Source: Moraxellaceae bacterium (GTDB lineage Bacteria; Pseudomonadota; Gammaproteobacteria; Burkholderiales; Rhodocyclaceae). Taken from it: a DNA stretch of 34,281 nt. Shown in pieces: positions 14,944-30,152 of the stretch (the first letter of the stretch is position 1; each line of letters begins with the position of its first letter). The position numbers and the translations under genes were made by a program. The stretch is taken from assembly GCA_031119205.1 (NCBI GenBank), contig JAVHYF010000041.1:1-34281 (forward strand), written 5' to 3'. The notes below the pieces were generated by a model that was not told where the DNA came from, did no database searches, and was given only the letters and a program-made list of their open reading frames with translations.

Positions 14944-15015
14944 AGCAATCCGATTCAAAGCAATCAACTGCAACGGCGCGCGCTGTCGTTGCAAGGTATC
15001 CATCCAGGCATTGCC

Positions 15016-15870
15016 ATGACACCACCCAAGATGAAAGGCCTCGGTCGGGGCCTCGAAGCCCTGCTTGGCGGCGACACGCTGCCGGCGGACACCGGCAACC
15101 TCACCACGCTGCCGGTCGGCGGCCTGCAGCCAGGCAAGTACCAGCCGCGCACGCGCATGGACGCCGGCTCGCTGGAAGAGCTGGCCGCGTCGATCAAGGC
15201 GCAGGGGTTGATGCAGCCGATCACCGTGCGGCCTGTTGCGGGTGGCAAGCACGAGATCATCGCCGGTGAGCGTCGCTGGCGCGCGGCGCAACTCGCTGAG
15301 CTCACCGAAGTGCCGGTCATCATCCGCGACATTCCGGACGAAGCCGCGCTGGCGATGTCACTCATCGAGAACATCCAGCGTGAGGATCTCAATCCGCTGG
15401 AAGAAGCGCTGGGCATCCAGCGCCTGATCGACGAATTCGGCATGACCCACCAGCAGGCTGCCGACGCACTGGGCCGTTCGCGCCCGGCCACCAGCAACCT
15501 GCTGCGTCTGTTGCAATTGCAGGAAGCGGTGCGCGAGATGCTGATGCTTGGCGACATCGAGATGGGCCACGCCCGCGCGCTGCTGGCGGTGGACCCGGCG
15601 CAGCAGATCCTCCTGGCCAACCAGGTCGTCGCGAAGCGACTGTCGGTGCGCGACACCGAGAAACTGGTGTCCAGCCAGCTCAAGCCGCGTGACGAGAAGA
15701 CCGCGAAGCGCGCCGAGAACAGTCAGGACGTGCTGCGTCTGGAAGAGGAGCTGTCCGACCGTTTCGCTGCTACGGTGAAGATCAAGGCCAGCAAGAAAGG
15801 CGTCGGCACGCTGACCATCAGCTTCGGCAGCCTGGACCAGCTCGACGGAATTCTCGGCAAGCTGAAGTAA
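15016..15870 (+). CDS. parB: Chromosome-partitioning protein ParB (Spo0J)
   Basis: The protein has 284 residues from ATG 15016. KGLGRGLEALLG near the N-terminus is the ParA-stimulating region. The CTP-binding and clamp motifs are GERRWRA (84-90) and ENIQRED (118-124), and the helix-turn-helix for parS follows at about 143-165. The C-terminus is the dimer domain. A TTG at 14989 would add nine residues; ATG 15016 has CAGG at the right distance and was preferred. In many betaproteobacteria parB lies next to the atp operon; here about 13 kb separates them. A long inverted repeat begins at the base after the stop codon. Confidence 0.96.
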   Translation: MTPPKMKGLGRGLEALLGGDTLPADTGNLTTLPVGGLQPGKYQPRTRMDAGSLEELAASIKAQGLMQPITVRPVAGGKHEIIAGERRWRAAQLAELTEVPVIIRDIPDEAALAMSLIENIQREDLNPLEEALGIQRLIDEFGMTHQQAADALGRSRPATSNLLRLLQLQEAVREMLMLGDIEMGHARALLAVDPAQQILLANQVVAKRLSVRDTEKLVSSQLKPRDEKTAKRAENSQDVLRLEEELSDRFAATVKIKASKKGVGTLTISFGSLDQLDGILGKLK

Positions 15871-15992
15871 GAAGCCGCAACAAAATGGTTCTGGCGTTGT
15901 TGCATCTCCTTGCCGTACTGGATGTACTGTCTTCGTCGATGCGCCTAGCCAGAACCGCTGCGCTTCGCTTCACTCTATTCTGTTGCGGCTTC
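15871..15992. repeat. Long imperfect inverted repeat after parB
   Basis: Outer arms 15871-15886 and 15977-15992 are complementary at 15 of 16 positions. A second pair, GGTTCTGGC (15887-15895) and GCCAGAACC (15948-15956), is perfect. The middle contains CGTACTGGATGTACTG (15914-15929), close to the core of the 3065-3187 element, which reads CGTACTGGAGTACG on the opposite strand. The two elements have different arms but the same size and plan. It fills almost the whole gap between parB and the next gene and may end parB transcription. Confidence 0.8.
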
Positions 15993-16036
15993 CAAAGCCT
16001 GCGGCCTTGGCTGTAGTCATCTTGCAAGGATGCATC

Positions 16037-16726
16037 ATGAACAGACGTCGTTTCGTGTCCGCACTGGCGCTGGCACCGCTGCTCGCACCCCTGTACGCGC
16101 ATGCTGGTTTGCTCGACGCGATTTCCAGCAAGGATGCGACGGCGGGCCTGAAGCAGGCGCTGGAGCAGGGGGCCACGCAAGCGGTCGCCACGCTCGGCGT
16201 GACGGACGGCTTCCAGGGCAATCCGCGCTTCCGCATCCCCTTGCCGGATTCGATCCGGCAGATCGAGCCAGCGCTGCGCCTGATGGGTCAGGGGCCGGCA
16301 CTGGACGAACTGCAGCAGGCCATGAACCGTGCCGCCGAGATGGCGGTGGCCGAGGCGAAGCCGCTGCTGGTGGGCGCGGTGAAGCAGATGAGCGTGCAGG
16401 ACGCCAGGAGCATCCTTGGCGGTGGCGACGACTCCGTGACCCAGTATTTCCGCAGCAAGACGCTGACGCCGCTGACCCAGAAATTCCAGCCGGTAGTGAA
16501 GCGCGCAACGGGCCGTGTGAAGCTGGCCGAGCAGTACAACCAGCTGGCCGGGCAAGGCGCCGCGCTCGGCCTGGTGAAAGCCGAAGACGCCAACGTCGAG
16601 AGTTTCGTGACCCGCCGTGCCCTGGATGCGCTGTACCTGCGCATCGCGGAGGAAGAGCGGGCCATCCGCCAGAACCCCGCCGAGGCTGTGGGTAGCATCG
16701 CCCGTAAAGTATTTGGCGCGATCTGA
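16037..16726 (+). CDS. DUF4197 family exported protein
   Basis: The 229-residue protein starts with a signal peptide (MNRRRFVSALALAPLLAPLYAHA, cut after about residue 23) with an RR pair near the start. The mature part is helical and fits the DUF4197 pattern: LLDAISSKDATAGLKQALEQG, then DGFQGNPRFRIPLP, the central VKQMSVQDARSILGGGDDSVT and a C-terminal LDALYLRIAEEERAIRQNP. Proteins of this family are periplasmic and have no established function. The ATG at 16037 has AAGGA seven bases upstream. The gene is monocistronic between an inverted repeat and a convergent terminator. Confidence 0.88.
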   Translation: MNRRRFVSALALAPLLAPLYAHAGLLDAISSKDATAGLKQALEQGATQAVATLGVTDGFQGNPRFRIPLPDSIRQIEPALRLMGQGPALDELQQAMNRAAEMAVAEAKPLLVGAVKQMSVQDARSILGGGDDSVTQYFRSKTLTPLTQKFQPVVKRATGRVKLAEQYNQLAGQGAALGLVKAEDANVESFVTRRALDALYLRIAEEERAIRQNPAEAVGSIARKVFGAI

Positions 16727-16776: not shown

Positions 16777-16802
16777 CAGACAGCGGCTACGGCCGCTGTC
16801 TG
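16777..16802. terminator. Convergent terminator overlapping the Bcr/CflA stop
   Basis: A perfect 11-bp stem (CAGACAGCGGC, loop TACG, GCCGCTGTCTG) is followed on the plus strand by TTCTTGTG. It lies 50 bases after the DUF4197 stop and includes the last codons and the stop of the exporter gene from the other strand. It should end plus-strand transcription and may also mark the end of the lipid operon. Confidence 0.75.
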
Positions 16803-18001
16803 TTCTTGTGCCAGGCGTACAGCACGAAGCACAACAGGCTGGCGATCCAGCCGCCGGTAGCCGCCCAGGCCAGATGATGGAGGTCGGACCATACCGCCGG
16901 CGCCAGCAGGCCCGCACAGGCCGCCGTCACCAGCATCTGGATGAAGCCCTGGCAGCTCGCCGCGAGCCCGCGCCGCTCCGGGAACATGTCCAGCGCGATG
17001 AGGCTGAAGCTGGGCATCGCCAGGCTCATGCCGAAGGTGTAGAGCGCGAGTTGCGGAATGCGGCTGGCTACCGAGGTGAATACGAAGTAGTTCAGCATCA
17101 GGTTGATCAGGGTTGCCACGGCCATGATGCTGAAGCCCAGGCGCACGGTGCCGTGACGGGACAGCTTGCCGGCCAGGCGTGCAGACAGGGCCGAGCCGCA
17201 GACCATGCCCAACACCATCGGTACGAACAGCCAGCCGAACTCCGTGCTGGACAGGCCAAGGTGCTGCATCAGGAACACGGGCGCCGACATCACGTAGACG
17301 AAGAAGCCGGTGAACATCAGGCCCAGCGACAGCGCGCTCAGCACGAAGCCGGGGTGGCCCAGCACGCTTACGTAACCGCGCATCAGCGACACCGGATGCA
17401 GTGACTGGCGCTGCTCGGGCGGCAGCGTTTCCGGCAGGTGGGTCACGGTCATGACCAGTTGCACCACGCCCAGCAGGGCCAGGAAGCCGAACACGCTGCG
17501 CCAGCCCAGCAGCTCCGTGATCCAGCCGCCGAAGATCGGGGCTACCGCGGGCGCCAGCGCGAACACCATGGCCACGTGCGCCATCAGCCGTTGCGCCGCC
17601 GGGCCCTCCAGCACATCGCGGATGATCGCGCGGCCCACCACGACGCCCACACCGGCAGAAATCCCCTGCAGCGCACGGCCCAGCCACAGCATCTCGATGC
17701 TTTGCGCCATGACGCACACCAGCGAGGCCAGTGAGAACAGCGTCAGCCCCACCAGCAGGACGCGGCGGCGCCCCAGCGCGTCGGCCAGCGCGCCGTGCCA
17801 CAGCATCATGAAGGCGAAGGGCAGCATGTAGGCGGTGAGCGACTGCTGCATCGCCAGCGGCGTGGTGTGCAGCCCCGCCTCGATGGCCGGAAAGGCCGGC
17901 AGGTAGGTGTCGATGGAGAATGGGCCGATTGCGTTCAGCAATGCCAGCATCATGGCCAGCAGCGGATAGGCGATCGGTTTCGGGAGATGAGACGTTGGCA
18001 A
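16787..18001 (-). CDS. Bcr/CflA-type multidrug efflux MFS transporter
   Basis: The 404-residue protein has twelve predicted membrane helices. NAIGPFSIDTYLPAFPAIEAGL near the N-terminus and the motif A loop GALADALGRRRVLL identify the Bcr/CflA group of H+-driven drug exporters. The start is taken as TTG at 18001, with GGAAG upstream: the next in-frame ATG falls inside the first helix, and the ATG at 18115 lies within the previous gene. It is the last gene of the minus-strand lipid cluster, 34 bases after the LplT-PlsC fusion, and could export a product of that cluster, though the family mostly exports drugs and amino-acid-like compounds. Confidence 0.88.
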   Translation of the reverse strand: MPTSHLPKPIAYPLLAMMLALLNAIGPFSIDTYLPAFPAIEAGLHTTPLAMQQSLTAYMLPFAFMMLWHGALADALGRRRVLLVGLTLFSLASLVCVMAQSIEMLWLGRALQGISAGVGVVVGRAIIRDVLEGPAAQRLMAHVAMVFALAPAVAPIFGGWITELLGWRSVFGFLALLGVVQLVMTVTHLPETLPPEQRQSLHPVSLMRGYVSVLGHPGFVLSALSLGLMFTGFFVYVMSAPVFLMQHLGLSSTEFGWLFVPMVLGMVCGSALSARLAGKLSRHGTVRLGFSIMAVATLINLMLNYFVFTSVASRIPQLALYTFGMSLAMPSFSLIALDMFPERRGLAASCQGFIQMLVTAACAGLLAPAVWSDLHHLAWAATGGWIASLLCFVLYAWHKNRQRP

Positions 18002-18035
18002 GGTGTACTTCCGGTTGCTGCAGAAGGGGAATGCG

Positions 18036-19913
18036 TCAGGCGGCTTCGCCGCGCAGGGTCTGGATGCGCGCCTGCAAGGCGGCGGGCGAAACGCTGTCGG
18101 GCGCCATCGGCGCATCCACGATCAGCTCGATGCGGTTGAAGAAACCACGCCGGAACGGTTTGCTCATGGCAGGACCACCCTTGCGCGAGAAGAAGCTGCC
18201 CCACAGGCCGCGCAAGGCCATCGGCACCACCGGCACCGGGTTGCGCTGCAGGATCTTGTTGATGCCGCCCTTGAAGGGCGCAATCTCGCCGCTGTCGGTG
18301 ACACGGCCTTCGGGAAAGATGCCGACCAGATCGCCGGCCGCCAGCGCTGCAGCGATGTCGTCGTAGGCGCGGTGCAGGGTGTCCGGGTCTTCCTTAGCCG
18401 AAGCGATCGGAATGGCGCGGTTCTCGCGGAAGACGAAGTTGAGGACCGGGATGCGGAAGATGCGATGGTCCATCACGAAGCGGATCGGCCGCGGACTGGC
18501 GGCGAGGATCACCAGCGCGTCGACGAAGCTCACGTGGTTGCAGACAATCACCGCGGCGCCGCCCTCGGGAATGTGCGCGACGCCCTGAGTCCGTACGCGA
18601 TATACCGTGTGCACCAGCAGCCACACGATGAAGCGCATCAGGAATTCCGGCAGCAGGGTGTAGATGTAGATGGCCACCACGGCATTGAAGAGCGCGACCG
18701 CGAGGAAGAGTTCCCCGATGGACAGCCCCAGACCCAGCAGAACCATGCTGACACCGGCCGATACCACCATGAAGCCGGCATTCATGATGTTTACCGCCGC
18801 GATCACTCGCGACACATAGCGCCTGTCGCAGCGGGTCTGGATCATCGCATTCAGCGGCACGACGTAAAGCCCGCCACACAGGCCCAGCGCAGCGATGTCG
18901 AACAGCAGACGCCAGTGCGTGAAGTGCTGCAGGTACTCCGTGATGCCGCCGTTTTGCATCAGCGGTGTGTCGGGTATCGAGAAGTACATGTCGGTGCCGA
19001 ACAGCGTCAGGCCGATGGCCGCCAGCGGCACCAGGCCGATCTCCACCCGCCCGCGCGACAGGCGCTCGCACAGCAGGGAGCCGATGCCGACGCCGACCGA
19101 GAAGACCGTCAGCAACAGCATGAACACGCTTTCGCTGCCGCCCAGTGCACTCTTCGCAAGATTCGGGAATTGCGCCAGCACCGTGGCGCCGTAGAACCAG
19201 AACCACGAGATGCCCAGCACCGACAGCCACACGGCGCGGTTGCTGCGCGCGAAACCGATGTTGCGCCAGGTCTCGCTGAACGGATTCAGGTTCACCTTCA
19301 GGCCTGGCTCGGCAGGCGGTGACGATGGAATGCCACGGCTGGCCCACCAGCCGGCAATGGCGAGTGCCAGCACGCCGATGCTCGCCAGCCGGTTGCTGTC
19401 GTCCAGCGCGATCAGCCCCGCGCCCAGCACCTGGCCGAGAAGGATCGCCACGAAGGTGCCCATGCCCACCATGCCGTTGCCCCCTACCAGCTCCTGCGGC
19501 GCGAGGTGCTGCGGCAGGTAGGAGTATTTGACCGGGCCGAAGAAGGTGGAGTGCAGCCCCATCAGCACCAGCGCGAGCACGAGTTGCCACAGGCTGTGGG
19601 CGAGGAAGCCCCAGCCTGCCAGCAGCATGATGGCGATCTCGCACAGCTTCACCACGCGCGCCACGCTGCCCTTGTCGTACTTGTCAGCCACCTGCCCGCC
19701 CGTCGCGGAGAACAGGAAGAAGGGCAGGATGAACAGACCGGGCAGCAGGGTGGTGAGCTGGGCAGAACCCAGACCCGCGAACTCAGCGCCGCGGAACGCC
19801 ACGAGGGTGATCAGCGCCGTCTTGAAGACGTTGTCGTTGAACGCGCCTAGGAATTGCGTGAGGAAGAACGGCAGGAAGCGCTTTTCGCGCATCAGCTGGA
19901 ACTGGTTGCTCAT
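18036..19913 (-). CDS. LplT-like MFS transporter fused to PlsC acyltransferase (copy A)
   Basis: The protein has 625 residues. Residues 1 to about 420 form an MFS domain resembling the lysophospholipid flippase LplT (FLTQFLGAFNDN, GQVADKYDKG, FGPVKYSYLPQ). The last 190 residues are a PlsC/LPLAT acyltransferase with the catalytic NHVSFVD (HX4D) and FPEGR. The fusion would flip lyso-lipids inward and acylate them at the inner face. The start at 19913 gives the MSNQFQLMREKRFLPF N-terminus; a longer frame upstream runs over the hydroxylase gene. A paralogue of equal length lies at 23597-25474 and is mostly identical by eye. There is a 77-base gap to the gene before it. Confidence 0.93.
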   Translation of the reverse strand: MSNQFQLMREKRFLPFFLTQFLGAFNDNVFKTALITLVAFRGAEFAGLGSAQLTTLLPGLFILPFFLFSATGGQVADKYDKGSVARVVKLCEIAIMLLAGWGFLAHSLWQLVLALVLMGLHSTFFGPVKYSYLPQHLAPQELVGGNGMVGMGTFVAILLGQVLGAGLIALDDSNRLASIGVLALAIAGWWASRGIPSSPPAEPGLKVNLNPFSETWRNIGFARSNRAVWLSVLGISWFWFYGATVLAQFPNLAKSALGGSESVFMLLLTVFSVGVGIGSLLCERLSRGRVEIGLVPLAAIGLTLFGTDMYFSIPDTPLMQNGGITEYLQHFTHWRLLFDIAALGLCGGLYVVPLNAMIQTRCDRRYVSRVIAAVNIMNAGFMVVSAGVSMVLLGLGLSIGELFLAVALFNAVVAIYIYTLLPEFLMRFIVWLLVHTVYRVRTQGVAHIPEGGAAVIVCNHVSFVDALVILAASPRPIRFVMDHRIFRIPVLNFVFRENRAIPIASAKEDPDTLHRAYDDIAAALAAGDLVGIFPEGRVTDSGEIAPFKGGINKILQRNPVPVVPMALRGLWGSFFSRKGGPAMSKPFRRGFFNRIELIVDAPMAPDSVSPAALQARIQTLRGEAA

Positions 19914-19990
19914 GGTGGGCTTGGGCGGGCCGCGGGGGACGCCCATCTTGCCATGTCCTTGCGGTGGATCGCCCCCGGCACGCGAGAGTG

Positions 19991-20716
19991 CTACAGACGC
20001 GTGCCCAGCCAGCGGTCGAAGCAGGACAGCGCAAAGCCGTAGTTGCCATGCGCACGGGCGTGGTGGGCGGCATGTTGCTCGCTTGCCCGCCGCAGCCAGC
20101 CAGCGGGGCTGCGTGGCCGCCAGTTGCTGTGACCGAGGACGTTCCAGGCCAGCGACAGCGCCGGCAGGCACAGCAAGGCCCAGGGCGAGAAGGCGTGAGC
20201 GCACAGCGCCAGCGGCATCACCGCGCCGAGCAGGAAGGCTTCGATCCAGTGGAAGTTGAAGGCGGCAAGCGGGGTGACCCGCACCGAGCGGTGATGCACG
20301 GCGTGAACCCGCAGGAAGAGCGGCCGCCAGTGCAGCAGGCGATGCGTGGCGTAGAAGTGGACCTCGTTCCACAGCCACAGGCTGCATACCTCCAGAGCCC
20401 AGCGGGCCGGCCCCACGTCCCAGCTGACCGCAAGCCACCCGCGGTCGAGTAGCCACCACACTGCCGCTGCCTGCGCGGCGAACACCCCGATGGAGCGCAG
20501 GCTGCCGGCAATCTCGCTGCGAACCTGACCCGTCCGCAGCGGCCGCGCGTTGATCGGCGCCGCAGCCAGTCTGTCCAGCAAGAGGAATGCGCCACCGGCC
20601 ATCACCGCGTAGAGAAGCAGGAACCAGCCCGCCGTCAGCACGGCGGCCAGTAACGGCGAGCCGTCGCCAGTGCGGGCGAACACTATCGCCAGCGCCTGTT
20701 GCGACAAATCGATCAT
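19991..20716 (-). CDS. Fatty acid hydroxylase/sterol desaturase superfamily protein
   Basis: The 241-residue integral membrane protein has at least four hydrophobic segments (about 20-50, 75-92, 107-120, 160-195). The di-iron histidine clusters are complete: HFYATHRLLH (H120, H125, H129), HAVHH (H138, H141, H142), H196 and HAAHH (H215, H218, H219). Such enzymes hydroxylate or desaturate acyl chains, sterols or related lipids using oxygen. The substrate is unknown. Its start overlaps the stop of the preceding unknown-family gene by 4 bases, so both are coupled in the lipid operon. Confidence 0.9.
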   Translation of the reverse strand: MIDLSQQALAIVFARTGDGSPLLAAVLTAGWFLLLYAVMAGGAFLLLDRLAAAPINARPLRTGQVRSEIAGSLRSIGVFAAQAAAVWWLLDRGWLAVSWDVGPARWALEVCSLWLWNEVHFYATHRLLHWRPLFLRVHAVHHRSVRVTPLAAFNFHWIEAFLLGAVMPLALCAHAFSPWALLCLPALSLAWNVLGHSNWRPRSPAGWLRRASEQHAAHHARAHGNYGFALSCFDRWLGTRL

Positions 20717-21642
20717 GCTTCTGCGGGTACGTCGGCCTGCGCGGCGAGGGCGCGTTTTTGCTGTACGAGGTAGGCGTGCAGCATCTCAGTCGCCAGGCCA
20801 TGCAATACCAGCCGGAAGCCCGCACGCAGCGTGGTCATCGGGATCATCGGATGCTTGTTGTTCACCAGCAGCAGTGGCAGAGGATCGTCGAGGATGCGCG
20901 AGGCATACAGCGCGATGGTCTCGTCCAGCTGCAACGAGTTGGCGGCGCGCCAGAAGTCGGTGTCAGTCAGGAAGAACTGGTACACCGGGGTATAGACCTC
21001 GATGGCGGTCAGCAGGTCGACACGGTTCCAGCGGCCCTGCGGCATGCTGTCTATGGGGAAGCCGCCGTCGGTGATCATCGACAGGTCCAGTGCAGGCGGT
21101 GGCTGCATGCGCTGGCCGCGTGCATGCAGGGCCTGGTTCACCCAGATGACGAAGTTGTAGAGGTTGAGATCGTGACGCAGGAAGGCGTCGTCGCGCAGCT
21201 CCTCCAGCGAGCGGAAGCGCATGAAATGCAGCGGTGGAATCTCCACGCCGGGCAGGTTGCGCAGGATGAACTGCTGGATCTCGGCACCAAGGTGGAAGTG
21301 ACGCATGATCAGCCAGTTGGCCTGCGGGCTGACGAAGCGCTGCAGGCCGAAGACGAGGCTGCGGTGCAGGAGGCTGGAGGATTGCCAGTGTTTCGGCAGC
21401 ACGAGCTTGAGCACCTGCACCAGTACGATGGCGGCGCGCGCAAAGGGGCGCAGCAGCGGCAGCAGGTACTGCCGGCTGGGCGAAGCGCTGTCCTCCAGCC
21501 AGGCCTGCTTGACCGCCGGATCGATGGGGATGCTGGTGTCGACCATCAGCGCATGCCAGGGGTCGGGGTCGCGCGGGTCATGCGGCCGCATCGGGTCCCT
21601 GAACGCCGGGCTGGTGTGGCGGGCTTCGGTGCGGGCGTTCAC
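20713..21642 (-). CDS. Protein of unknown family in the lipid operon
   Basis: I do not recognise this 309-residue protein. It starts at a GTG that overlaps the ketosynthase stop (GTGA), and its own stop overlaps the hydroxylase start (ATGA), so it is tightly coupled on both sides. The N-terminal 40 residues are Pro/Asp/Arg-rich. A hydrophobic helix (YLLPLLRPFARAAIVLVQVL, about 61-80) could be membrane-associated. The rest is helical, with conserved-looking stretches such as MRHFHLGAEIQQFILRN, LRHDLNLYNFVIWVNQAL and DLLTAIEVYTPVYQFFLTD, rich in His, Asp and Glu. A His/acidic pattern could bind metal, but no known motif is clear. Context suggests a role in the same lipid pathway. Confidence 0.8.
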   Translation of the reverse strand: MNARTEARHTSPAFRDPMRPHDPRDPDPWHALMVDTSIPIDPAVKQAWLEDSASPSRQYLLPLLRPFARAAIVLVQVLKLVLPKHWQSSSLLHRSLVFGLQRFVSPQANWLIMRHFHLGAEIQQFILRNLPGVEIPPLHFMRFRSLEELRDDAFLRHDLNLYNFVIWVNQALHARGQRMQPPPALDLSMITDGGFPIDSMPQGRWNRVDLLTAIEVYTPVYQFFLTDTDFWRAANSLQLDETIALYASRILDDPLPLLLVNNKHPMIPMTTLRAGFRLVLHGLATEMLHAYLVQQKRALAAQADVPAEA

Positions 21643-23597
21643 AGCACGTGCTCCCACTGCATGAGGTAGAGCTGGGCGATGCGTCGCGCGGTGGCGACGA
21701 TGGCGTCGGCACTGCCGGGGTCGGCAGCCAGCACGATGCGCACTGCGTCCAGCCAGTGCGCCAGATGCTCCAGGTCGTTCTCGCCGTGGTACTTCAGGAA
21801 GCGGAAGCAACGCTCGGGCAGATCCAGCTGGCGGCGCAGCATCGGCAGCAGCACCGGCACGATGCGCTGGCCCGTCCCTTCGATGATGTAGATGCCGCCC
21901 AGGAGGCCCAGCGGATCTGTCTGCTTCGACAGCGCGTGCATGTAGGCGTTGAGACCCTCGCCGCCGGGATTGCGACGCAGGCTGTCGATGTCCGGTGCCG
22001 TGCCGCCCGCCGTCTGGTAGTCCTCGAAGAGAATGCGGAAGTCGAACTGCTCGTCGCCGGCGTGGGCTTCGATCAACGCCTGCAGCAAGGCGAAGCGCGG
22101 GCTCAGCGAGGCGGCGGCCTGGCGCATCCAGATGCTGCCCTCTCGCACTTGCGGGATCCAGCAAGCCATCCAGCGCAGGTAGTCCTCGCGCGTCATGTGC
22201 CCTTCACGGATACGTGTGGCCAGTGGCGTGCGCCATACCTGAGAGCGGTAGTCGTGCCACACCGCGGCCAGCTCCTGCAGCGTGGCGCGCAGACGCGGAT
22301 CGTCGGCTGTCGCTGGGTCATGCGGGGCCGCGATGTGGGTAGCATCACTGGCATGCGCTTTGACCGGTTCGGCGGCTGTCCCACTGTCCCGCCCGTCGAC
22401 CACAGTCAGCTGCATGAAGCCCACCGTGAAGCGACCGGACTCCGGCACGAAGCACAGGATGCGTTCGCCGGGTTTCAGCTCGCGTTCGCGCAGCAGACCG
22501 TCGAGCATGATGAAGAACGAGGCCGAGCCTGTATTGCCGCAGCGCGCGAGATTGGAGTACCAGCGTTCGCGTGGAATGGACAGGCCGGCCTTTTCCATCA
22601 GGTCTTCACAGACCTTGCCCAGGCTCTCGGACGAGTAGTGGCACAGGAAGTGATCTACGCTGGCGGGATCGACGTGGCCCGCGCGCACGAGTGCGGCGTA
22701 CTCGTGGATGGCGACCTCGAAGAGCTGTGGTAGCAGGCGGGTGTCCTGGCGCAGCAGGAAGGCGCCGTCGGCCTCGGCGTCGGCAAGGCTGGGGTAGTCC
22801 AGATAGCTGCGACTGGCTTGCGCGGCAGTACCGAGCTGCATGCATGCGGGGAGGTCGCCAGAGAAGGACTTGAGGTGCACCCAGTCCAGTCGCAGTGACA
22901 GGCGATGGCGTGCCGGCTGTTTGCGCAGCACGCAGGCGCCGGCGCCGTCCGACAGCATCCAGCGCAGGAAGTGGGCGTCGAAGTCCACGTCGTAGCCGCG
23001 TGGCGCAAAACGCGTGGCGCGGAACATGCGCGACGGGTACTCGACCGTCGTCACCGCACCATGCGAATGGCCGCCATGTTCGATGAGGTTGGCGACGTTC
23101 TTCAGCGCGGCCACGCCTGCAGCGCAGATGCCGTGGTGGGAGTGGGCCTCCAGCGGCGGTGCCTTCAGCTCGCCTTGCAGCATGTTGGCCAGGCCGGGCA
23201 TGGCGACATCGCCCCCCGAACTGCCGGTGGCGAGCAGGCGCAGGTCGGCCAGCGGAAGCTGGGCGTCGTCCAGTGCGGCATGCAGGGCCTGTGCGGCCAT
23301 ATCCACCGCAGTGTGGCGGGGCGTGCCGTCCGGGGCACTGGCGTAGTGACGCGTGAGGATGCCGTTCTCTTCCAGGATGCGCCGCTTGATGCGCGTGGAG
23401 TGGCGGTTGATCGGCGCGATGTAGTCGTCCATCGCCGCGTTGTCTACCGGCTTGCCTGGCAGGAAGCGGCCGCTGCCGGTGACATACACCTGGCGGTAGA
23501 AGCTGGGGCCGTAGTCGCCGGTTGCCGGCCCGGATGCGGTTGTCGAAGCGCCTGCGGTCGTCGAAGCATCTGCTTGCGAATCTGTCCCTGCCGTCAT
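21639..23597 (-). CDS. KAS III-like ketosynthase fused to heme-oxygenase-like diiron oxidase
   Basis: The protein has 652 residues. Residues 1-30 are a Ser/Thr/Ala linker. Residues 35-400 are a thiolase-fold KAS III/OleA-like domain with catalytic C158 (HHGICAAG), H320 (LCHYSS) and N355 (GNTGSAS). Residues about 430-652 resemble TenA/heme-oxygenase-fold iron enzymes (UndA-like): candidate iron ligands are E487, H512, E573 and the HGENDLEH cluster (H604, D608, H611). One chain may condense acyl groups and oxidise or cleave the product. The start is ATG 23597, sharing one base with the upstream stop, with GGGAGG before it. The next gene overlaps its stop by 4 bases. Domain identities are firm for the first part, good for the second; the product is unknown. 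Confidence 0.87.
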   Translation of the reverse strand: MTAGTDSQADASTTAGASTTASGPATGDYGPSFYRQVYVTGSGRFLPGKPVDNAAMDDYIAPINRHSTRIKRRILEENGILTRHYASAPDGTPRHTAVDMAAQALHAALDDAQLPLADLRLLATGSSGGDVAMPGLANMLQGELKAPPLEAHSHHGICAAGVAALKNVANLIEHGGHSHGAVTTVEYPSRMFRATRFAPRGYDVDFDAHFLRWMLSDGAGACVLRKQPARHRLSLRLDWVHLKSFSGDLPACMQLGTAAQASRSYLDYPSLADAEADGAFLLRQDTRLLPQLFEVAIHEYAALVRAGHVDPASVDHFLCHYSSESLGKVCEDLMEKAGLSIPRERWYSNLARCGNTGSASFFIMLDGLLRERELKPGERILCFVPESGRFTVGFMQLTVVDGRDSGTAAEPVKAHASDATHIAAPHDPATADDPRLRATLQELAAVWHDYRSQVWRTPLATRIREGHMTREDYLRWMACWIPQVREGSIWMRQAAASLSPRFALLQALIEAHAGDEQFDFRILFEDYQTAGGTAPDIDSLRRNPGGEGLNAYMHALSKQTDPLGLLGGIYIIEGTGQRIVPVLLPMLRRQLDLPERCFRFLKYHGENDLEHLAHWLDAVRIVLAADPGSADAIVATARRIAQLYLMQWEHVL

Positions 23598-25474
23598 CAC
23601 AACACCTCCCCGCGTAGCGCGAGCACTTGCTCCTGCAGCGCCTGTGGCGTGGCATCTGCGGCGGCCACGGGTTCGCCGACGCGCAGCACGATGCGGTTGA
23701 ACAGGCCGCGACGTAGCGGCTTGCTCATGGCCGGACCATCCTTGCGCGAGAAGAAGCTGCCCCACAAACCCGACAGTGCCATCGGCACGACCGGCACCGG
23801 CGTGCGCGCGAGGATATTCGCGATGCCCTGCTTGAAGGGTGTCAGCTCGCCGGTATGGGTGATGGCACCTTCCGGGAAAATGCCGACGAGATCGCCCTCG
23901 GAAAGTGCCTGTGCGATCTCGTCGTACGCTTTCTCCAGCAGGGCCGGGTTGTCCTTCGACGTTGCGATGGGAATCGCGCGGTTCTCGCGGAACACGAAGT
24001 TCAGCAGCGGGATGCGGAAGATGCGATCGGCCATGACGAAGCGGACCGGTCGCGGGCTGCAGGCGATGAGCACCAGTGCGTCGACGAAGCTGACGTGGTT
24101 GCACACGATCAGCGCTGCGCCCTCGCGGGGTATGCGCTCGATGCCTTCGCTGCGCACGCGGTAGATCAGGCTGATGGCGATCCACACGATGAAGCGCATC
24201 AGGAATTCCGGCAGCAGCGTGTAGATGTAGATCGCCACGACCGCGTTGAACAGCGCGGTGGCGAGGAACAGTTGGGGGATGCTGAAGCCGAGCGCGAAGA
24301 GCCCCATGCTGACGCCGGCCGACACCACCATGAAGGCGGCGTTGAGGATGTTGTTGGCGGCGATGATCCGCGACTGGTGGCTGCGCTCGCTGCGCGTCTG
24401 CACCAGGGCATACAGCGGCACGATGTAGAAGCCGCCGAACAGACCGATCAATCCGATGTCTGCCAGGAGGTGCCAGTGCGCGCCGTGGGCGAGGAAGCCG
24501 GCGAGGCTGGCGGAGTCCGCCAGCGGCGCGGCGGGAATAGCGAAGTACAGGTCGACACCGAACAGGGTCAGACCGATGGCGCCGAAGGGCACCAGGCCGA
24601 TCTCGACGCGCCCTTGCGACATCTTCTCGCACAGCAACGAGCCGATGCCCACGCCGACCGAGAAGACACCCAGCAGCAGGATGAACACCTGCTCGCCACC
24701 GCCCAGCACGTCCTTGGCGAAGATCGGGAACTGTGCCAGCAGCGTGGCACCGTAGAACCAGAACCACGAGATGCCCAGTACGGCGAGCCACACGGCGCGC
24801 TGCTTGCGCGCGAAGCCGATGTTGCGCACGGTTTCCGTGAAGGGGTTCCAGTTGACGCGGATGCCGGGGTCGGCGGCGGGGGATGCCGGCATGGCGCGAC
24901 TGGCCAGCCAGCCAGCAAGCGCCAGGACCAGCACCGTGATGGCGACCGGCCAGCCGCTGTCGGTCAGGGCAATGATGGCTACGCCGACGACTTGCCCGAG
25001 CAGGATGGCGACGAAGGTGCCCATTTCCACCAGGCCGTTGCCACCGACCAGTTCGTGCTCGCGCAGATGCTGGGGCAGGTAGGCGTACTTGGCTGGGCCG
25101 AACACGGTCGAGTGGAGACCCATGAGCAGCAACGCGATGACCAGTGACCACAGCTCATGGGTGACGAAGCCCCACGCGGCGAGCAGCATCACTGCGATTT
25201 CGAAGAGCTTCACGCCGCGCATCACGCGCGTCTTGTCGTATTTGTCGGCGACCTGCCCGCTGGTGGCGGAGAACAGGAAAAAGGGCAGGATGAACAGGCC
25301 GGGCAGCAAGGTCGCCAGCGCGCTGCTGTCCAGCCCCGCGAGTTGCGCGGCGCGGAAGCTCACCAGCGTGATCAGCGCCGTCTTGAAGGCGTTGTCGTTG
25401 AAGGCGCCGAGGAACTGGGTAAGGAAGAAGGGCAGGAAGCGGCGCTCCTTCAGTAGCGAGAACTGGGAACTCAT
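23597..25474 (-). CDS. LplT-like MFS transporter fused to PlsC acyltransferase (copy B)
   Basis: This 625-residue protein has the same layout and exact length as copy A (18036-19913). The MFS half shows FLTQFLGAFNDN, GQVADKYDKT and FGPAKYAYLPQ; the PlsC half shows NHVSFVD. The acyltransferase block III reads FPEGA here but FPEGR in copy A, a possible difference in phosphate handling. It starts at 25474, where ATG overlaps the aas stop (ATGA), placing transporter and acyltransferase right after the acyl-ACP synthetase, as in the lplT-aas pair of enterobacteria. Expected role: inward flipping of lysophospholipids and their re-acylation at the inner membrane. Confidence 0.93.
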   Translation of the reverse strand: MSSQFSLLKERRFLPFFLTQFLGAFNDNAFKTALITLVSFRAAQLAGLDSSALATLLPGLFILPFFLFSATSGQVADKYDKTRVMRGVKLFEIAVMLLAAWGFVTHELWSLVIALLLMGLHSTVFGPAKYAYLPQHLREHELVGGNGLVEMGTFVAILLGQVVGVAIIALTDSGWPVAITVLVLALAGWLASRAMPASPAADPGIRVNWNPFTETVRNIGFARKQRAVWLAVLGISWFWFYGATLLAQFPIFAKDVLGGGEQVFILLLGVFSVGVGIGSLLCEKMSQGRVEIGLVPFGAIGLTLFGVDLYFAIPAAPLADSASLAGFLAHGAHWHLLADIGLIGLFGGFYIVPLYALVQTRSERSHQSRIIAANNILNAAFMVVSAGVSMGLFALGFSIPQLFLATALFNAVVAIYIYTLLPEFLMRFIVWIAISLIYRVRSEGIERIPREGAALIVCNHVSFVDALVLIACSPRPVRFVMADRIFRIPLLNFVFRENRAIPIATSKDNPALLEKAYDEIAQALSEGDLVGIFPEGAITHTGELTPFKQGIANILARTPVPVVPMALSGLWGSFFSRKDGPAMSKPLRRGLFNRIVLRVGEPVAAADATPQALQEQVLALRGEVL

Positions 25475-27018
25475 GCGGCCTCCGCCCATTGTTTGAGGGT
25501 GACGTAGTCGATCTTGCCGGTGCCCAGCAGCGGTAGTGCGTCCACCACGATGATCCTGCGCGGCACGGCGATCTCCGGCCAGCCGCCACTGCGGGCCGTG
25601 GCCTGCAGTGCCTCGCGCGTCAAAGCCGCATCGGTGGTGAACAGCAGGACGCTCTCGCCGCGGGCGGCATCGGGCTGGGTGGAGGCGGCATGCTGGGCGC
25701 CGGGTGCTGCCTGCACGGCGAGTTTCTCCACGGACTCCAGCGACACCATCTCGCCGGCTACCTTGGCGAAGCGCTTGACGCGACCGACGATGCGCACGAA
25801 ACCCTCTGCGTCGATATCCACCACGTCGCCGGTCTCGTACCAGCCGATGCCGGCTTCCGAACCGGGCGGTTGCAGCACGCCGGGCTGGTCGACCTTCAGG
25901 TAGCCGCTCATCAGGTTGGGACCCTTCACGTGGAGGATGCCGCCCTGCTCGATGCCGGGCACCGTGACCAGTCGCGACTGGATGCCCGGCAGCAGCTGTC
26001 CGACGGTGCCGCCGCGGAATGCCATCGGGGTGTTCACCGCCAGCACCGGTGCCGTTTCGGTGGCGCCGTAGCCCTCGAAGATGCGCAAGCCGAACTTCTC
26101 GAACCAGGTGCTGCGAATGGCTTCCGACAGTTTCTCGGCGCCGGCGATGACATAGCGCAGGCGATAGAAGTCGTAGGGGTGGGCGAATTTCGCGTAGTTA
26201 CCCAGGAAGGTGCTGGTGCCCAGCAGTACCGTGCAGCCGCGGTCGTAGGCCAGCTCCGGAATCACGCGGTAGTGCAGCGGAGACGGGTACAGGAAGACGT
26301 TGGCACCGGTCAGCAGCGGCAGGATGCCGCCTGCGGTGAGGCCGAAGGAGTGGAACAGCGGCAGCGCGTTGAGGATCTTGTCGTCCGCCGAGAAGTCCAC
26401 CACTGCGCGGATCTGGCCGACGTTGGCAAGCAGTGCGCGATGCGACAGCACCACACCCTTGGGCTTGCCTTCGGATCCGGAGGTGAACAGTACGACAGCG
26501 GCATCCTCCGGCTTGCCGTCACGCGTGGCCCAGCGCGGGAAGTGCAGGGCCCAGCCCATCAGCCACAGCTTGTCGGCCCAGCCAGCCTGCTCGCGCAGGT
26601 CTTCCAGATAGAGGATGCGGACGCCTTGCAGGGCGTCGATCTTGTCAGCCAGTTTGGCCTGGGCCACGAAGGCGCGCGAACTGACGATCAGTTGCAGACG
26701 GGCTGCGGTGCAGGCGGCCTGCATGCCATCCACGCCGGCGGTGTAGTTCAGCATCGCCGGGATGCGTCCGTGGGCGTTCAGGCCGAAAACCATGGCGAGC
26801 GTCGGCGCGAGGTTCGGCAGCAGCACGCCGACGTGTTCGCCATCGCTACTGTAGCGTGACACCAGGCGACCCAGCATCAGCGCCATCTTGAGCAGGTCGT
26901 TGTACGAGTACTCGATCTGGCGCATGTCCTCGACCAGGCGGTGACGACGCCCGAAGATGCTGGCGGCATCCACCAGCGCTGCGAAGATGGTCTGCTGCGG
27001 ACGCGAGGCGAAAATCAT
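25471..27018 (-). CDS. aas: Aas acyl-ACP synthetase half (C-terminal part of split aas)
   Basis: This 515-residue AMP-forming ligase corresponds to the C-terminal domain of enterobacterial Aas. Motifs: LFTSGSEGKPKGV (ATP loop), FEGYGATETAPV, GWYETGDVVDID, KRFAKVAGEMVSLE and the catalytic Lys in GTGKIDYVTLK. It activates a fatty acid and passes it to bound ACP for lysophospholipid acylation. The frame is separated from its acyltransferase half by an 11-bp tandem duplication at 27048-27074. The ATG at 27018 overlaps the stop of the first half (ATGA), so both pieces may still be made; ATG 27027 is an alternative. Adjacent residues upstream in this frame (GEQLRRIMQE) continue the Aas sequence, which supports recent splitting. 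Confidence 0.92.
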   Translation of the reverse strand: MIFASRPQQTIFAALVDAASIFGRRHRLVEDMRQIEYSYNDLLKMALMLGRLVSRYSSDGEHVGVLLPNLAPTLAMVFGLNAHGRIPAMLNYTAGVDGMQAACTAARLQLIVSSRAFVAQAKLADKIDALQGVRILYLEDLREQAGWADKLWLMGWALHFPRWATRDGKPEDAAVVLFTSGSEGKPKGVVLSHRALLANVGQIRAVVDFSADDKILNALPLFHSFGLTAGGILPLLTGANVFLYPSPLHYRVIPELAYDRGCTVLLGTSTFLGNYAKFAHPYDFYRLRYVIAGAEKLSEAIRSTWFEKFGLRIFEGYGATETAPVLAVNTPMAFRGGTVGQLLPGIQSRLVTVPGIEQGGILHVKGPNLMSGYLKVDQPGVLQPPGSEAGIGWYETGDVVDIDAEGFVRIVGRVKRFAKVAGEMVSLESVEKLAVQAAPGAQHAASTQPDAARGESVLLFTTDAALTREALQATARSGGWPEIAVPRRIIVVDALPLLGTGKIDYVTLKQWAEAA

Positions 27019-27626
27019 CTCTTGCATGATGCGGCGCAGCTGCTCGCCGGCGAGCCGACGGCGAGCCGACGGCGGGCCTTGGCGGTCGGTGCTTCCGGCA
27101 TCGGCAGGTGGGTGGTCGGCAGGAAATGCAGGCTCACGCGCGGCAGCAGGCGGCGCGGGCTGCGGCCCGACACGCGGGAAAAGTAGCTGCGTGCGGCGCC
27201 GTCCAGGCGCACGGGGGCCAGCGTCGCACCGCTGCGCGCAGCGATGAAGGCCGGCCCGTCATAGACCTTCATGAGGCTGCCGGTAGTAGTGAGACGGCCT
27301 TCCGGGAATATCACCACTGGCCGGCCCGATTCGACTACGCGCAACACCTTCTTCATCGCCATCGGGTTGGTCGGGTCGACGGCGAGGTAGTCGACCAGCG
27401 ACAGCACGAGGCGCAGGAGCGGATTGCGCGCCACGCCAGTGTGTACGACGAAGAGGGCATCGACCGGCAGGAAGAGTCCGAGCAGCAGGCCGTCGAGGAA
27501 GGACTCGTGGTTGGCGATGATCAGCAGGCGTTGCTGGCGCGCCAGTACGGATGAGTCACCCGTGATCTTGATGCGGAACAGCACCCGCGCCAGGTTGCGC
27601 AGGCCTTGCTTCAGGAGGGTCTTCAT
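27015..27626 (-). CDS. aas: Aas acyltransferase half (N-terminal part of split aas)
   Basis: The 203-residue protein matches the N-terminal PlsC-like domain of Aas (2-acylglycerophosphoethanolamine acyltransferase). Key parts are RVLFRIKITGD, the catalytic HX4D in NHESFLDG (H40, D45), LAVDPTNPMAMKKV and VVIFPEGRLTTTGSLMKVYDG (FPEGR at 107-111). Similarity stops after residue 189 (RRRLA). The last 14 residues are a frameshifted tail. Removing one copy of the 11-bp duplication joins this frame to the next gene: 27626 to 25471 is 2156 bases, and 2145 after removal, or 714 residues, against about 719 for E. coli Aas. The acyltransferase domain itself is complete and may work alone. Confidence 0.92.
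   Translation of the reverse strand: MKTLLKQGLRNLARVLFRIKITGDSSVLARQQRLLIIANHESFLDGLLLGLFLPVDALFVVHTGVARNPLLRLVLSLVDYLAVDPTNPMAMKKVLRVVESGRPVVIFPEGRLTTTGSLMKVYDGPAFIAARSGATLAPVRLDGAARSYFSRVSGRSPRRLLPRVSLHFLPTTHLPMPEAPTAKARRRLAVGSPASSCAASCKR
27048..27074. repeat. 11-bp tandem duplication that splits aas
   Basis: The unit GCGAGCCGACG occurs at 27050-27060 and again at 27061-27071. The 11-base periodicity extends over 27048-27074, about 2.5 copies. On the coding (minus) strand the unit reads CGTCGGCTCGC. Eleven bases shift the frame; with one unit removed the coding sequence reads RRRLAGEQLRRIMQEM, which follows the Aas family pattern (compare E. coli DRRKIAGEMLHQIMME). It may be a real mutation, a reversible slippage site, or an assembly error. 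Confidence 0.85.
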
Positions 27627-27697
27627 GTTGTCGGGATGGTCGCGGGAAGTCGTCGATCGTGTGGTCGTCTCGTGTGGCTGCTATTCAGATTCTGCGG

Positions 27698-28369
27698 TCA
27701 GTCCTTGCGCTGCCTGCCGATGGCATGCCCATCGAATATCGTGTGCAAATCCGGACTGTGCAACTGGCTTGATGGAGTGACCGTGCGGCGTTGCCACGGG
27801 ATGTTGCCGAAGTACCACCAACGCCAGAAGGTGAGCGCGGTCTGCGGATTGTGTGCGAGAAGCGTGGAGAAGCTCTGGATCTCGCCGACCTCTTCGCCGA
27901 TCGCCTCCAGCAGCACTTCGCGCACGAACTTCGAGCAGAACTGCCGCGATGAATCCAGGTTGAAGCCGGTGTGATACAGCTTGCCCATGCGCTTGCGTGC
28001 TGCGGCTTCGATGGCAATGGCATCGGCCGCATCCAGGCTGATCCGCAGGCGACGCACGGCCACGCGACCGCCTGCCGAGCGGGCAAGAAAGCGTGACAAG
28101 GTGGTTACACCCGACAGGGGCACCCGGCTTTCGGCGATGAGAGGCTCGGAGCCATCTGTGCGGATGACGATCCCGACATGGTTGGTCCAGCTGGAACTGG
28201 CGCTGGCGATGCGGCGGTACAGCGGATTGTCGATGAGGGTGAAGACCAGATCCCCGACCTGGAGCTGCGAGGCCAGATCAGCCACGTCCAGCGTGGGGGC
28301 GGCGCCATCGTCCGGCAGTCGGCGCCGAGGGGCGGCATTGCGGCGGTGGGTTTGAGTGGTCGTGTGCAT
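27698..28369 (-). CDS. YebB/YiiX-like permuted NlpC/P60 (papain-fold) protein
   Basis: The 223-residue protein belongs to the permuted papain-fold group that includes YiiX and YebB. The predicted catalytic His is H64 (TNHVGIV), near the N-terminus, and the Cys is C145 (RQFCSKFV), in the order expected for the permuted fold; an Glu at 80 (LIAES) is also conserved in the group. Related proteins are amidases, thioesterases or lipid acyltransferases (LRAT-like), which fits a lipid operon. No signal peptide is evident; the first 20 residues are Arg-rich. It is the first gene after the regulator, with AGGAG 11 bases before the ATG and an operator-like palindrome 22 bases further upstream. Confidence 0.85.
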   Translation of the reverse strand: MHTTTQTHRRNAAPRRRLPDDGAAPTLDVADLASQLQVGDLVFTLIDNPLYRRIASASSSWTNHVGIVIRTDGSEPLIAESRVPLSGVTTLSRFLARSAGGRVAVRRLRISLDAADAIAIEAAARKRMGKLYHTGFNLDSSRQFCSKFVREVLLEAIGEEVGEIQSFSTLLAHNPQTALTFWRWWYFGNIPWQRRTVTPSSQLHSPDLHTIFDGHAIGRQRKD

Positions 28370-28391
28370 GCTTGATCAGGCTCCTATGTTC

Positions 28392-28411
28392 CGATGTGTC
28401 TAGACATATCG
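28392..28411. promoter_or_regulatory. ArsR-type operator in front of the lipid operon
   Basis: The 20-bp site reads CGATGTGTCT followed by AGACATATCG, an inverted repeat matching at nine of ten positions. It lies between the regulator gene and the YebB-like gene, 22 bases before the latter's start codon. The half-site CGATATGT(C/T) is the same as in the site at 28758-28777. Confidence 0.65.
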
Positions 28412-28443
28412 AAATGTTGATCATGAAAATCCAGCCAGGCGTA

Positions 28444-28755
28444 TCAAAGGCGCTTGCGCAGGTGCTCGGTGACATCTTCGAAGACCTGCATCAGCCAGGC
28501 CTTGTTGATCCAGTACCAGACTTCCTTGCCGGTCTTCTCGCTCTCCAGCACGCCGGCCTCGCGCAGGATCTTCAGGTGGTGCGAAACGGTAGAGCGGGCC
28601 AGCGTGGAGACCTCGGCCAGCTGCGAGACGTTGAGCCGCTCGCCAGGTTCGAAGCTGAGGACCAGGCGCTGGCGGTGTTCGTCACCCAGGGCTTCGAACA
28701 CTTTCGACATGGCGCGCCACTCGGCAGGGATGGCACGGGAGTAATTGCGGTTCAT
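28444..28755 (-). CDS. ArsR-family transcriptional regulator
   Basis: This is a small winged-helix regulator of 103 residues (109 if ATG 28773 is used). The recognition region is LSQ/LAEVSTLARSTVSHHLKILREAGVLESEKTGKEVWY-like: VSQLAEVSTLARSTVSHHL is the HTH and EKTGKEVWYWIN the wing. No Cys pair for metals is present, so it is not a typical metal sensor; the ligand is unknown. ATG 28755 was preferred because a promoter-like TTGACT (28790-28785) and the operator 28758-28777 overlap the alternative start at 28773; the transcript could then begin at or near the ATG without a leader. It is divergent from the atp operon and precedes the lipid genes. Confidence 0.88.
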   Translation of the reverse strand: MNRNYSRAIPAEWRAMSKVFEALGDEHRQRLVLSFEPGERLNVSQLAEVSTLARSTVSHHLKILREAGVLESEKTGKEVWYWINKAWLMQVFEDVTEHLRKRL

Positions 28756-28855: not shown

Positions 28856-28912
28856 CGCTCGGCTTTTTTGGCCGCGACCGATAGTCGCTCGCAGCCGAAG
28901 TCGGGGGAGAGC

Positions 28913-29254
28913 ATGTACAAAGTGGTGCGCCTGCAAAGTGCGCTGGCTCTCTTTGGTGTCCTGCTGGGCACCGCCTTCTTCGGTCTTCGCGGGGCGCTGT
29001 CGGCAGCCATCGGTGGCGCAGCCTGTGTCATCCCCAGTCTGTTCTTTGCGTGGCGCCTCTCCAGGACGGCTACGCAACCAGGCGCGTCCCGAGTGGGGAC
29101 GTTTGTTGCCGGGGAGTTGCTCAAGCTGGCCCTCGTAGTCGGAATTTTGATCGCAGCGGGTGGCCTGTATCCGGGCATCCACTGGGGTGCAGTGGTGTTA
29201 GGCCTGGCCGTCACCCTGCAAGCGAATTTTTTTGCATTCTTGATTAGAACCTGA
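28913..29254 (+). CDS. atpI: ATP synthase assembly protein AtpI
   Basis: The 113-residue membrane protein has four hydrophobic segments and sits first in the atp operon. The sequence LFGVLLGTAFFGLRGALSAAIGG and the ending LQANFFAFLIRT are typical of betaproteobacterial AtpI, which helps assemble the c-ring. The ATG at 28913 has a GGGGGAGA ribosome-binding site; the longer frame from 28868 lacks one. atpB starts one base after its stop codon. Confidence 0.92.
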   Translation: MYKVVRLQSALALFGVLLGTAFFGLRGALSAAIGGAACVIPSLFFAWRLSRTATQPGASRVGTFVAGELLKLALVVGILIAAGGLYPGIHWGAVVLGLAVTLQANFFAFLIRT

Positions 29255-29255
29255 C

Positions 29256-30152
29256 ATGGCGACCGGAACCGAGGCGGCCCACGGCCCCACCCCGGGTGAG
29301 TACATCGCTCACCACTTGACCCACTTCAATGGCACTGGCGGCAAGCAGGCTGCGCTGGTGGACTTCTCCCTCGTCAACTACGACACCCTGTTCTGGGCGG
29401 TTGCGATGGGGGTGCTCGGCTGTTTCGTGCTGTGGCTGGCTGCCCGCAAGGCGACGTCCGGCGTGCCCGGCCGTTTCCAGGCCGCCGTCGAACTGCTGGT
29501 CGAAATGGTGGGTGACCAGGCCAAGGGCCTCATCCACAGTCCCGAGTCGCGCAAGTTCGTCGCTCCGCTGGCGCTGACAGTCTTTGTCTGGGTGTTCCTG
29601 ATGAACGCCATGGACTTCATTCCGGTCGATCTGATCCCGCGCCTCTGGGAAATGATCTACGGTGGCATGGGCCATGATCCGCACCATGCGTACCAGCGCG
29701 TCGTCGCGACGGCCGACATCAATGCCACGCTGGGCATGTCGATCACCGTGCTGCTGATCTGCCTGTTCTACAACGTCAAGATCAAGGGCGCGGGTGGCTG
29801 GGCGCATGAACTGGTCAGTGCGCCATTCGGCACCAGCAAGAACCCGATCCTCGCTGTCGTGCTCGGCCTGGTGAACTTCGCCATGCAGATCATCGAGTTC
29901 GCTGCCAAGACCATTTCGCACGGCATGCGCTTGTTCGGCAACATGTTCGCCGGCGAGCTGATCTTCATGCTCATCGCGCTGATGGGCGCTGCCTGGACGG
30001 GCTACAACGCCCCCAGCATCCTGCTTTTCCTGGGTCACTTCGTGGCCGGTATGGCATGGACCCTGTTCCACATTCTGGTCGTCGTATTGCAGGCGTTCAT
30101 CTTCATGATGCTGACGCTGGTCTACGTCGGCCAGGCGCACGAGTCGCACTGA
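29256..30152 (+). CDS. atpB: ATP synthase Fo subunit a
   Basis: This 298-residue subunit forms the proton half-channels beside the c-ring. The essential Arg is R225 in SHGMRLFGNM, the equivalent of E. coli R210. The hydrophobic segments and the VWVFLMNAMDFIPVDLIP motif are conserved. The protein is slightly longer than the E. coli one (271) because of a longer N-terminus and a loop near 130-150 with several His. It starts directly after atpI. Confidence 0.98.
   Translation: MATGTEAAHGPTPGEYIAHHLTHFNGTGGKQAALVDFSLVNYDTLFWAVAMGVLGCFVLWLAARKATSGVPGRFQAAVELLVEMVGDQAKGLIHSPESRKFVAPLALTVFVWVFLMNAMDFIPVDLIPRLWEMIYGGMGHDPHHAYQRVVATADINATLGMSITVLLICLFYNVKIKGAGGWAHELVSAPFGTSKNPILAVVLGLVNFAMQIIEFAAKTISHGMRLFGNMFAGELIFMLIALMGAAWTGYNAPSILLFLGHFVAGMAWTLFHILVVVLQAFIFMMLTLVYVGQAHESH

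Follow-up and report, generated by a model that had tools for sequence, protein, structure and literature searches.

Why do genes for membrane-lipid recycling share a strand with genes for a ketosynthase, a di-metal oxidase and a hydroxylase, and do they form one pathway? The question is raised by contig JAVHYF010000041.1 (assembly GCA_031119205.1, a draft genome of 90 contigs); the window analysed here is this entire contig, 34,281 bases in length. Ten minus-strand open reading frames (ORFs), running from 28773 down to 16787, were assigned to Pfam and NCBIfam families (Table 1). These assignments bear out a preliminary description of this DNA in placing aas- and LplT-type genes beside a ketosynthase-diiron oxidase and a hydroxylase on one strand; the families that it named stand, and its count of eight genes becomes ten. 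That description had taken all of the genes as a single new pathway. We instead read the region as composite, that is, as a resident Aas/LplT operon together with part of a separate, widely conserved module that would make or oxidise a lipid; the module comprises a ketosynthase (KS) fused to a haem-oxygenase-like di-metal oxidase (HDO), a protein of family DUF6999 and a membrane hydroxylase. To this composite reading we give an even chance of being right.

To which system does each gene belong? Aas makes acyl-ACP (ACP, acyl carrier protein), and LplT moves lysophospholipids. A genome from another genus of the same family (G019) has the order parA, parB, ..., exporter, LplT-PlsC, Aas, YebB, ArsR, atpI, atpB, with a homologue of window positions 15983-16726 between parB and the exporter. 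At that locus there is a single LplT-PlsC, a 130-aa ORF separates LplT and Aas, and KS-HDO, DUF6999 and the hydroxylase are all absent. Because this related genome carries the same genes in the same place without those three, we read ArsR-YebB-Aas-LplT-PlsC-exporter, between parB and atpI, as a probable resident operon for membrane-lipid recycling. The comparison was widened to eleven LplT loci, namely G019 and ten picked from the 36 of 61 genomes that matched LplT. In none of the eleven was KS-HDO, DUF6999 or the hydroxylase present; atpB adjoined nine, and an Aas ligase was found in seven, ArsR in six, the exporter in five, and YebB and parB in two each. By these counts, the complete backbone of the window occurs in G019 alone and in part at the other loci. 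YebB itself is present in seven of 37 genomes searched, the window’s own genome being counted. At the level of sequence, the region has two parts, and an insertion may be the history of the locus.

The gap between ArsR/Aas and LplT differs among relatives: it holds a DUF559-like ORF in L133, an amidohydrolase-like gene in L152 and L155, a peptidase-like gene in L153 and a decarboxylase-like gene in L154, names that come from reading the sequences and not from a family search. This locus may often gain genes. Elsewhere (L149, L150 and L156), two tandem PlsC-ligase (aas-like) units precede LplT-PlsC.

Does the other part of the region exist independently? When a species-level genome collection was scanned with an alignment of DUF6999, 278 stretches were found to encode a relative. 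The best 80 of these 278, which were the ones named, are mostly from Betaproteobacteria (Achromobacter, Bordetella, Alcaligenes, Delftia, Comamonas, Collimonas and Iodobacter) and also include Lysobacter, Thiothrix and Cellvibrio. We assembled 108 distinct DUF6999 loci (113 loci plus the window, minus six duplicates), 89 of them found via DUF6999 and 19, the window among them, via KS or KS-HDO. In 87 of the 89, KS and HDO were no more than 6 kb away on the strand of DUF6999, and DUF6999 was present in all 19 of the others. Both a hydroxylase and a desaturase accompanied DUF6999 at 88 of the 108 loci, a hydroxylase only at three (the window, L146 and L147) and a desaturase only at three; KS and HDO occurred with neither at twelve, and DUF6999 stood alone at two (L025 and L188). 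The tblastn search for these tailoring genes used few references and may have missed remote ones. Where both KS and HDO were present, they formed one ORF in 93 of 96 loci, as counted in a set of 97 loci (93 distinct). The recurrence of KS, HDO, DUF6999 and, mostly, a hydroxylase in many genomes indicates that this gene set is more than chance, and the module is conserved. In the Thiothrix metagenome-assembled genome L025 (8841-10864), DUF6999 comes after a transposase-like gene, and there is no KS-HDO. In L188 (8716-8892), a short DUF6999 remnant lies upstream of a ClpP-like gene; L185 and L186, of the same genus, have KS, HDO and DUF6999 at that place.

The module is widespread and sparse. 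Counting the window’s own genome, full KS-HDO was found in 17 of 399 genomes of the order and seven of 297 of the family, and DUF6999 in seven of 369 genomes of the class and nine of 398 of the phylum; none of seven same-genus genomes searched had a full-length KS-HDO. Six further genomes of the family with full KS-HDO, one of which is the same record as L057, carry the form hydroxylase-desaturase-KS-HDO-DUF6999. In the order of G993, DUF6999 was found in five of 296 genomes, G993’s own not included, and a Caulobacter vibrioides genome that served as a control also has a DUF6999 match. More divergent DUF6999 relatives (24-27% identity; L170, L171 and L180) adjoin KS and HDO as separate genes. 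At two distant module loci (L021, 11448-12005; L180, 10440-11006), KS is preceded by a small membrane protein (185-188 aa) bearing His/Glu motifs; that of L021 had no Pfam match. Seventeen plasmid records match KS-HDO, one of them over at least 80% (from Pseudoalteromonas, with KS and HDO as separate genes). A viral origin of the module was considered and rejected, as a pattern scan found no DUF6999 relative among the viral contigs scanned. Among the papers listed in literature searches, judged by titles and the openings of abstracts, we recognised none describing the KS-HDO-DUF6999 set.

What chemistry would the fusion enzyme perform? By sequence, the best solved relative of the KS is StlD (1.8e-70; 37% identity), and a predicted model of KS-HDO matches the StlD structure 5gk0 at 6e-30; this model has a predicted local distance difference test score (pLDDT) of 84 and a predicted template-modelling score (pTM) of 0.60. 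The predicted catalytic triad, C158/H320/N355, is intact in 32 of 32 aligned fusions. One class of KS condenses a beta-ketoacyl thioester with an unsaturated acyl thioester to give 2,5-dialkylcyclohexane-1,3-diones (PMC4578411). We take StlD and DarB to be that class. The module could then be a variant dialkylresorcinol/cyclohexanedione pathway that provides a signal or part of a pigment, and the nearness of the KS to StlD/DarB speaks for it. However, KS-HDO scores 331.7 bits against the StlD/DarB family model NF005293, below its cut-off of 450 (two relatives score 333.3 and 344.7). In a tree that took eight of 19 DarB-like and three of four FabH rows, the others having been lost through fixed-frame reading, KS-HDO rows and DarB-like rows form separate clades (support 100/99); relative to the midpoint root, L021 groups close to the DarB side, and a FabH fragment, L015, is placed among the KS-HDO rows on an extremely long branch, which we regard as an artefact. 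No DarA model occurred among the NCBIfam matches of the ten operon proteins, the presence of DarA in that library being unchecked, and the genome has a true StlD/DarB gene adjoining DarH on another contig. All told, we consider the resorcinol/cyclohexanedione alternative unlikely. The contig in question is contig 68 (L158, 8705-11234), where this second ketosynthase (584 bits) and the DarH acyltransferase (481 bits) have another ketosynthase-like gene and a transporter gene nearby; the locus is probably an aryl-polyene/dialkylresorcinol cluster.

The HDO domain (PF14518, 42.6 bits, cut-off 28.9) was examined in the same alignment. H512, E516, E573, H604, D608 and H611 are present in 32 of 32 fusions and E486 in 31 of 32. 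The sole profile match in the PDB is 3dde (9.4e-9), a protein of unknown function whose alignment with the HDO shares the H-x3-E, E and H-x3-D-x2-H positions. According to PMC13108848, characterised HDOs mostly use fatty-acid or amino-acid substrates; a set of three histidines and three carboxylates (3H/3C) is common among their ligands, and 3H/4C is a smaller class first seen in SznF. The conserved residues of the window HDO have a 3H/4C make-up, these predicted ligands being assigned by conservation only.

These residues bear on another alternative, in which the module makes a hydrocarbon or a ketone: the KS would form a beta-keto acid and the HDO would cleave it oxidatively, in the manner of OleA plus UndA. 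There is precedent for both halves, as head-to-head joining of two chains by a KS is known (PMC4578411) and UndA is an HDO that converts fatty acids to 1-alkenes (PMC13108848). UndA has the 3H/3C set, however, and the window HDO fits 3H/4C as in SznF. The KS differs too: the base of PpyS is a Glu located 24 residues before the catalytic Cys (PMC4578411), and KS-HDO, like StlD, has Pro134 at that spacing, an argument from spacing only, since a conserved Glu143 exists elsewhere. We therefore regard a hydrocarbon or ketone product as improbable.

Less can be compared for DUF6999, which the preliminary description had called an unknown protein; it does belong to a Pfam family, of unknown function (392.4 bits). 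Its AlphaFold2 model is all-helical (mean pLDDT 86), and Foldseek found no match at E<=0.001 in the PDB or in a viral library. Sequence searches likewise gave no relative in the PDB (one profile match, at E 0.65). The idea that DUF6999 is a hidden HDO was rejected by hhalign, which gave no match (E 0.72). The protein has one hydrophobic stretch of 19 residues, and H98, H140, D141, D192, E198, D223, E224, H247, H264 and E269 are invariant in 36 rows; that these His, Asp and Glu residues could hold a metal is a guess. The hydroxylase keeps its His boxes (H120/H125, H138/H141/H142 and H215/H218/H219), which are conserved columns across 73 hydroxylase rows; the analysis also took in 88 desaturase rows (all ORFs >200 aa).

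With the KS triad intact, the HDO residues conserved and the His boxes kept, the condensing and oxidising pathway proposed in the preliminary description fits the sequence. The most likely role of the module is condensation of two acyl thioesters, followed by oxidation of the product. The KS would load an acyl thioester on Cys158 and join it to a second, probably a 3-oxoacyl thioester; the fused HDO would oxidise the KS product using O2, and DUF6999 would perform a third step. The membrane hydroxylase, with a membrane desaturase in most genomes, may decorate the chain. Aas might feed in acyl-ACP made from free fatty acids, and LplT-PlsC could move and acylate the lipid. The substrates and the order of these steps are putative.

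Are the resident lipid genes fit for such roles? The aas of the window was said to be one gene. It is present as two ORFs in different frames, a PlsC half (238.2 bits) and a ligase half (739.4 bits against PRK08043); no single PlsC-ligase protein above the cut-off of that model, 886 bits, is found in the window. In three relatives compared, aas is one continuous ORF of 712-714 aa. The frame change falls within window positions 27015-27096 and is either a real mutation or a draft error. KS-HDO, DUF6999 and the hydroxylase sit between two LplT-PlsC copies, which score 102.0 and 95.9 bits against the LplT model PRK11195 (cut-off 297) and both match the N-terminal half of PRK06814. The identity of the copies to relatives switches at about residue 420, copy a being nearer just before it and copy b just after; the windowed means are lowered by the wrongly trimmed rows of G005 and G001, for which the first three windows give 0; these rows were re-read for the trees. 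In those trees, the MFS (major facilitator superfamily) half groups both copies with G004, and the PlsC half groups only copy a with it. Integration by a crossover within LplT-PlsC, giving two chimeric copies, was considered and is not claimed, as the half-protein trees do not settle it. The frame change, the duplication and the 90-contig draft would also suit a composite operon that is decaying or partly misassembled. However, the ORFs for KS-HDO, DUF6999, the hydroxylase and the two LplT-PlsC copies span their family models with the conserved residues retained, and we doubt strongly that decay or misassembly explains the locus.

Is the module functionally linked to Aas/LplT? Homologues of the two gene sets do occur together elsewhere. 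LplT or Aas was scored where a match of at least 40% identity shared the strand of DUF6999 and lay no more than 8 kb from it, some stretches being shorter. LplT was found at seven of the 108 loci (the window, L179, L187, L032, L053, L054 and L058). At L179 (G993) and L187 (G1308), a full LplT-PlsC-ligase (AMP) fusion comes less than 60 bases after KS, HDO and DUF6999, starting 55-58 bases downstream of the DUF6999 match. Both genomes belong to a single genus from a different class of the phylum, which we take, unconfirmed, for Alphaproteobacteria. Since the window itself was chosen for this feature and the counts were not set against a null model of gene order, the adjacency in a second lineage is only suggestive.

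Several observations weigh against joining the two parts, or against the composite reading as a whole. Beyond the window, direct adjacency of module and LplT/Aas is seen in two of 107 loci, both from that one genus. A lone LplT-PlsC lies about 3 kb downstream in L032, L053, L054 and L058, with two other genes intervening in L032. The remaining 101 of 108 loci lack LplT or Aas by the above definition, as do the six other family genomes with KS-HDO in the 10-19 kb that were read. The GC (guanine plus cytosine) content is level across the insert and so gives no compositional sign of recent transfer; no sign of foreign composition was found. The split aas means that the acyl-ACP feeder may be broken or the draft sequence wrong, and the pTM of the fusion model also counts here.

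The module may accordingly work alone, its place in the aas/LplT operon being accidental, as one passenger among the unrelated genes that enter the ArsR/Aas-LplT gap. The 101 loci comport with this, as do the different genes that other relatives (L133, L152-L155) carry in that gap; the genus of another class, with its fusion directly behind DUF6999, does not. We hold accidental placement to be a serious contender, a little short of an even chance. A link between module and Aas/LplT is possible and not general, given LplT at seven of 108 loci and its absence from the six family genomes. With the G019 backbone lacking KS-HDO and none of the eleven LplT loci having it, the idea of one pathway comprising all of the genes is only weakly supported; the preliminary description saw a real and unusual gene set and read two systems as one. 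The Aas/LplT operon is its ordinary part, and the KS-HDO-DUF6999 core its interesting one. In a stronger form, which we offer tentatively and think rather more apt to fail than to hold, KS-HDO and DUF6999 would be the core of a lipid pathway not yet described, having its own condensing-oxidising fusion enzyme and a new-fold protein, with carriers among the Beta- and Gammaproteobacteria and in one or more further classes of the phylum; in the lineage of the window and in the genus of another class, it would be wired to Aas/LplT acyl-ACP recycling, so that the lipid would be built from, or returned to, membrane phospholipid.

The regulator at the head of the ten ORFs probably controls the operon. 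Arsenic sensors of the ArsR type have a Cys-based metal site; the present protein has no Cys among its 109 aa, so a thiol metal site is absent. The nine ORF junctions comprise three overlaps of 1-4 bases, one overlap of 13 and five gaps of 34-77, lengths that depend on the start codons selected; an earlier statement that most genes overlap by 1-4 bases was thus too strong. A consensus scan for terminator-like sites gave nine against 5.9 expected.

Table 1. Features of the window (positions in the 34,281-base contig; bit scores with model cut-offs where given).
Feature	Position	Strand	Basis or remark
ArsR/SmtB-type regulator, 109 aa	28444-28773	-	Pfam HTH_5, 39.5 bits; NCBIfam HTH_metalloreg NF033788, 66.2 bits (cut-off 55)
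YebB-family permuted papain-like amidase (C92)	27698-28369	-	NCBIfam YebB NF008547, 261.2 bits (cut-off 227)
PlsC half of aas (lysophospholipid acyltransferase)	27015-27626	-	PRK08043 positions 5-185
Acyl-ACP/CoA ligase half of aas (AMP-ligase)	25471-27027	-	PRK08043 positions 193-713
LplT-PlsC fusion, copy a	23597-25474	-	PRK06814 positions 3-598 of 1140, 555 bits; PF07690 + PF01553
KS-HDO fusion	21639-23597	-	StlD/DarB-like ketosynthase, ~residues 31-405; haem-oxygenase-like di-metal oxidase, ~430-652
DUF6999 protein	20713-21591	-	PF22523, 392.4 bits (cut-off 27)
Membrane fatty-acid hydroxylase	19991-20716	-	PF04116, 87.3 bits (cut-off 31)
LplT-PlsC fusion, copy b	18036-19913	-	MFS-PlsC by Pfam/NCBIfam; 70% identical to copy a
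Bcr/CflA-type MFS exporter	16787-18001 (alternative start 18115)	-	TIGR00710, 236.6 bits (cut-off 200.9)
Palindrome with 11-pair stem at end of exporter gene; possible terminator	16777-16802	unspecified	Consensus scan only
parB, left border of locus	14989-15870	+	
atpI-like ORF, right side	28868-29254	+	
atpB, right border	29256-30152	+	
tRNA-Gly (gcc)	11042-11135	-	

Why should this locus matter? A three-protein core is conserved across many genera, and with the core, its predicted catalytic residues and the optional tailoring genes now named, it becomes a testable pathway that can be searched for by name. If our reading is true, lipid chemistry would gain an HDO tethered to a ketosynthase and, possibly, an enzyme fold that is new. 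Should Caulobacter vibrioides carry KS and HDO as well, a function might be tested in that genetic model.

How, finally, does this region compare with known systems? With StlD/DarB, the window KS shares its fold, the Cys-His-Asn triad, the stated identity and the lack of a Glu at the PpyS spacing; it differs in its fusion to an HDO, its partners (DUF6999, hydroxylase, desaturase), its sub-threshold family score and its separate clade. The HDOs UndA, SznF and BesC have the PF14518 domain and conserved three His plus four Glu/Asp residues in common with the module HDO, which, unlike them, is fused to a ketosynthase in most carriers and has 3dde as its sole solved profile relative. As in Aas/LplT recycling, PlsC-ligase and LplT-type MFS-PlsC proteins are encoded in one operon; here, in contrast, Aas is split between two frames, the module lies between two LplT-PlsC copies, and ArsR and YebB stand upstream. 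With the Ole and Und hydrocarbon pathways, the region would share a two-chain condensation and HDO chemistry, which are thinkable here, whereas no OleB/C/D-like gene was recognised among the ten operon proteins, and the HDO residue set and the position of the KS base set the module apart.

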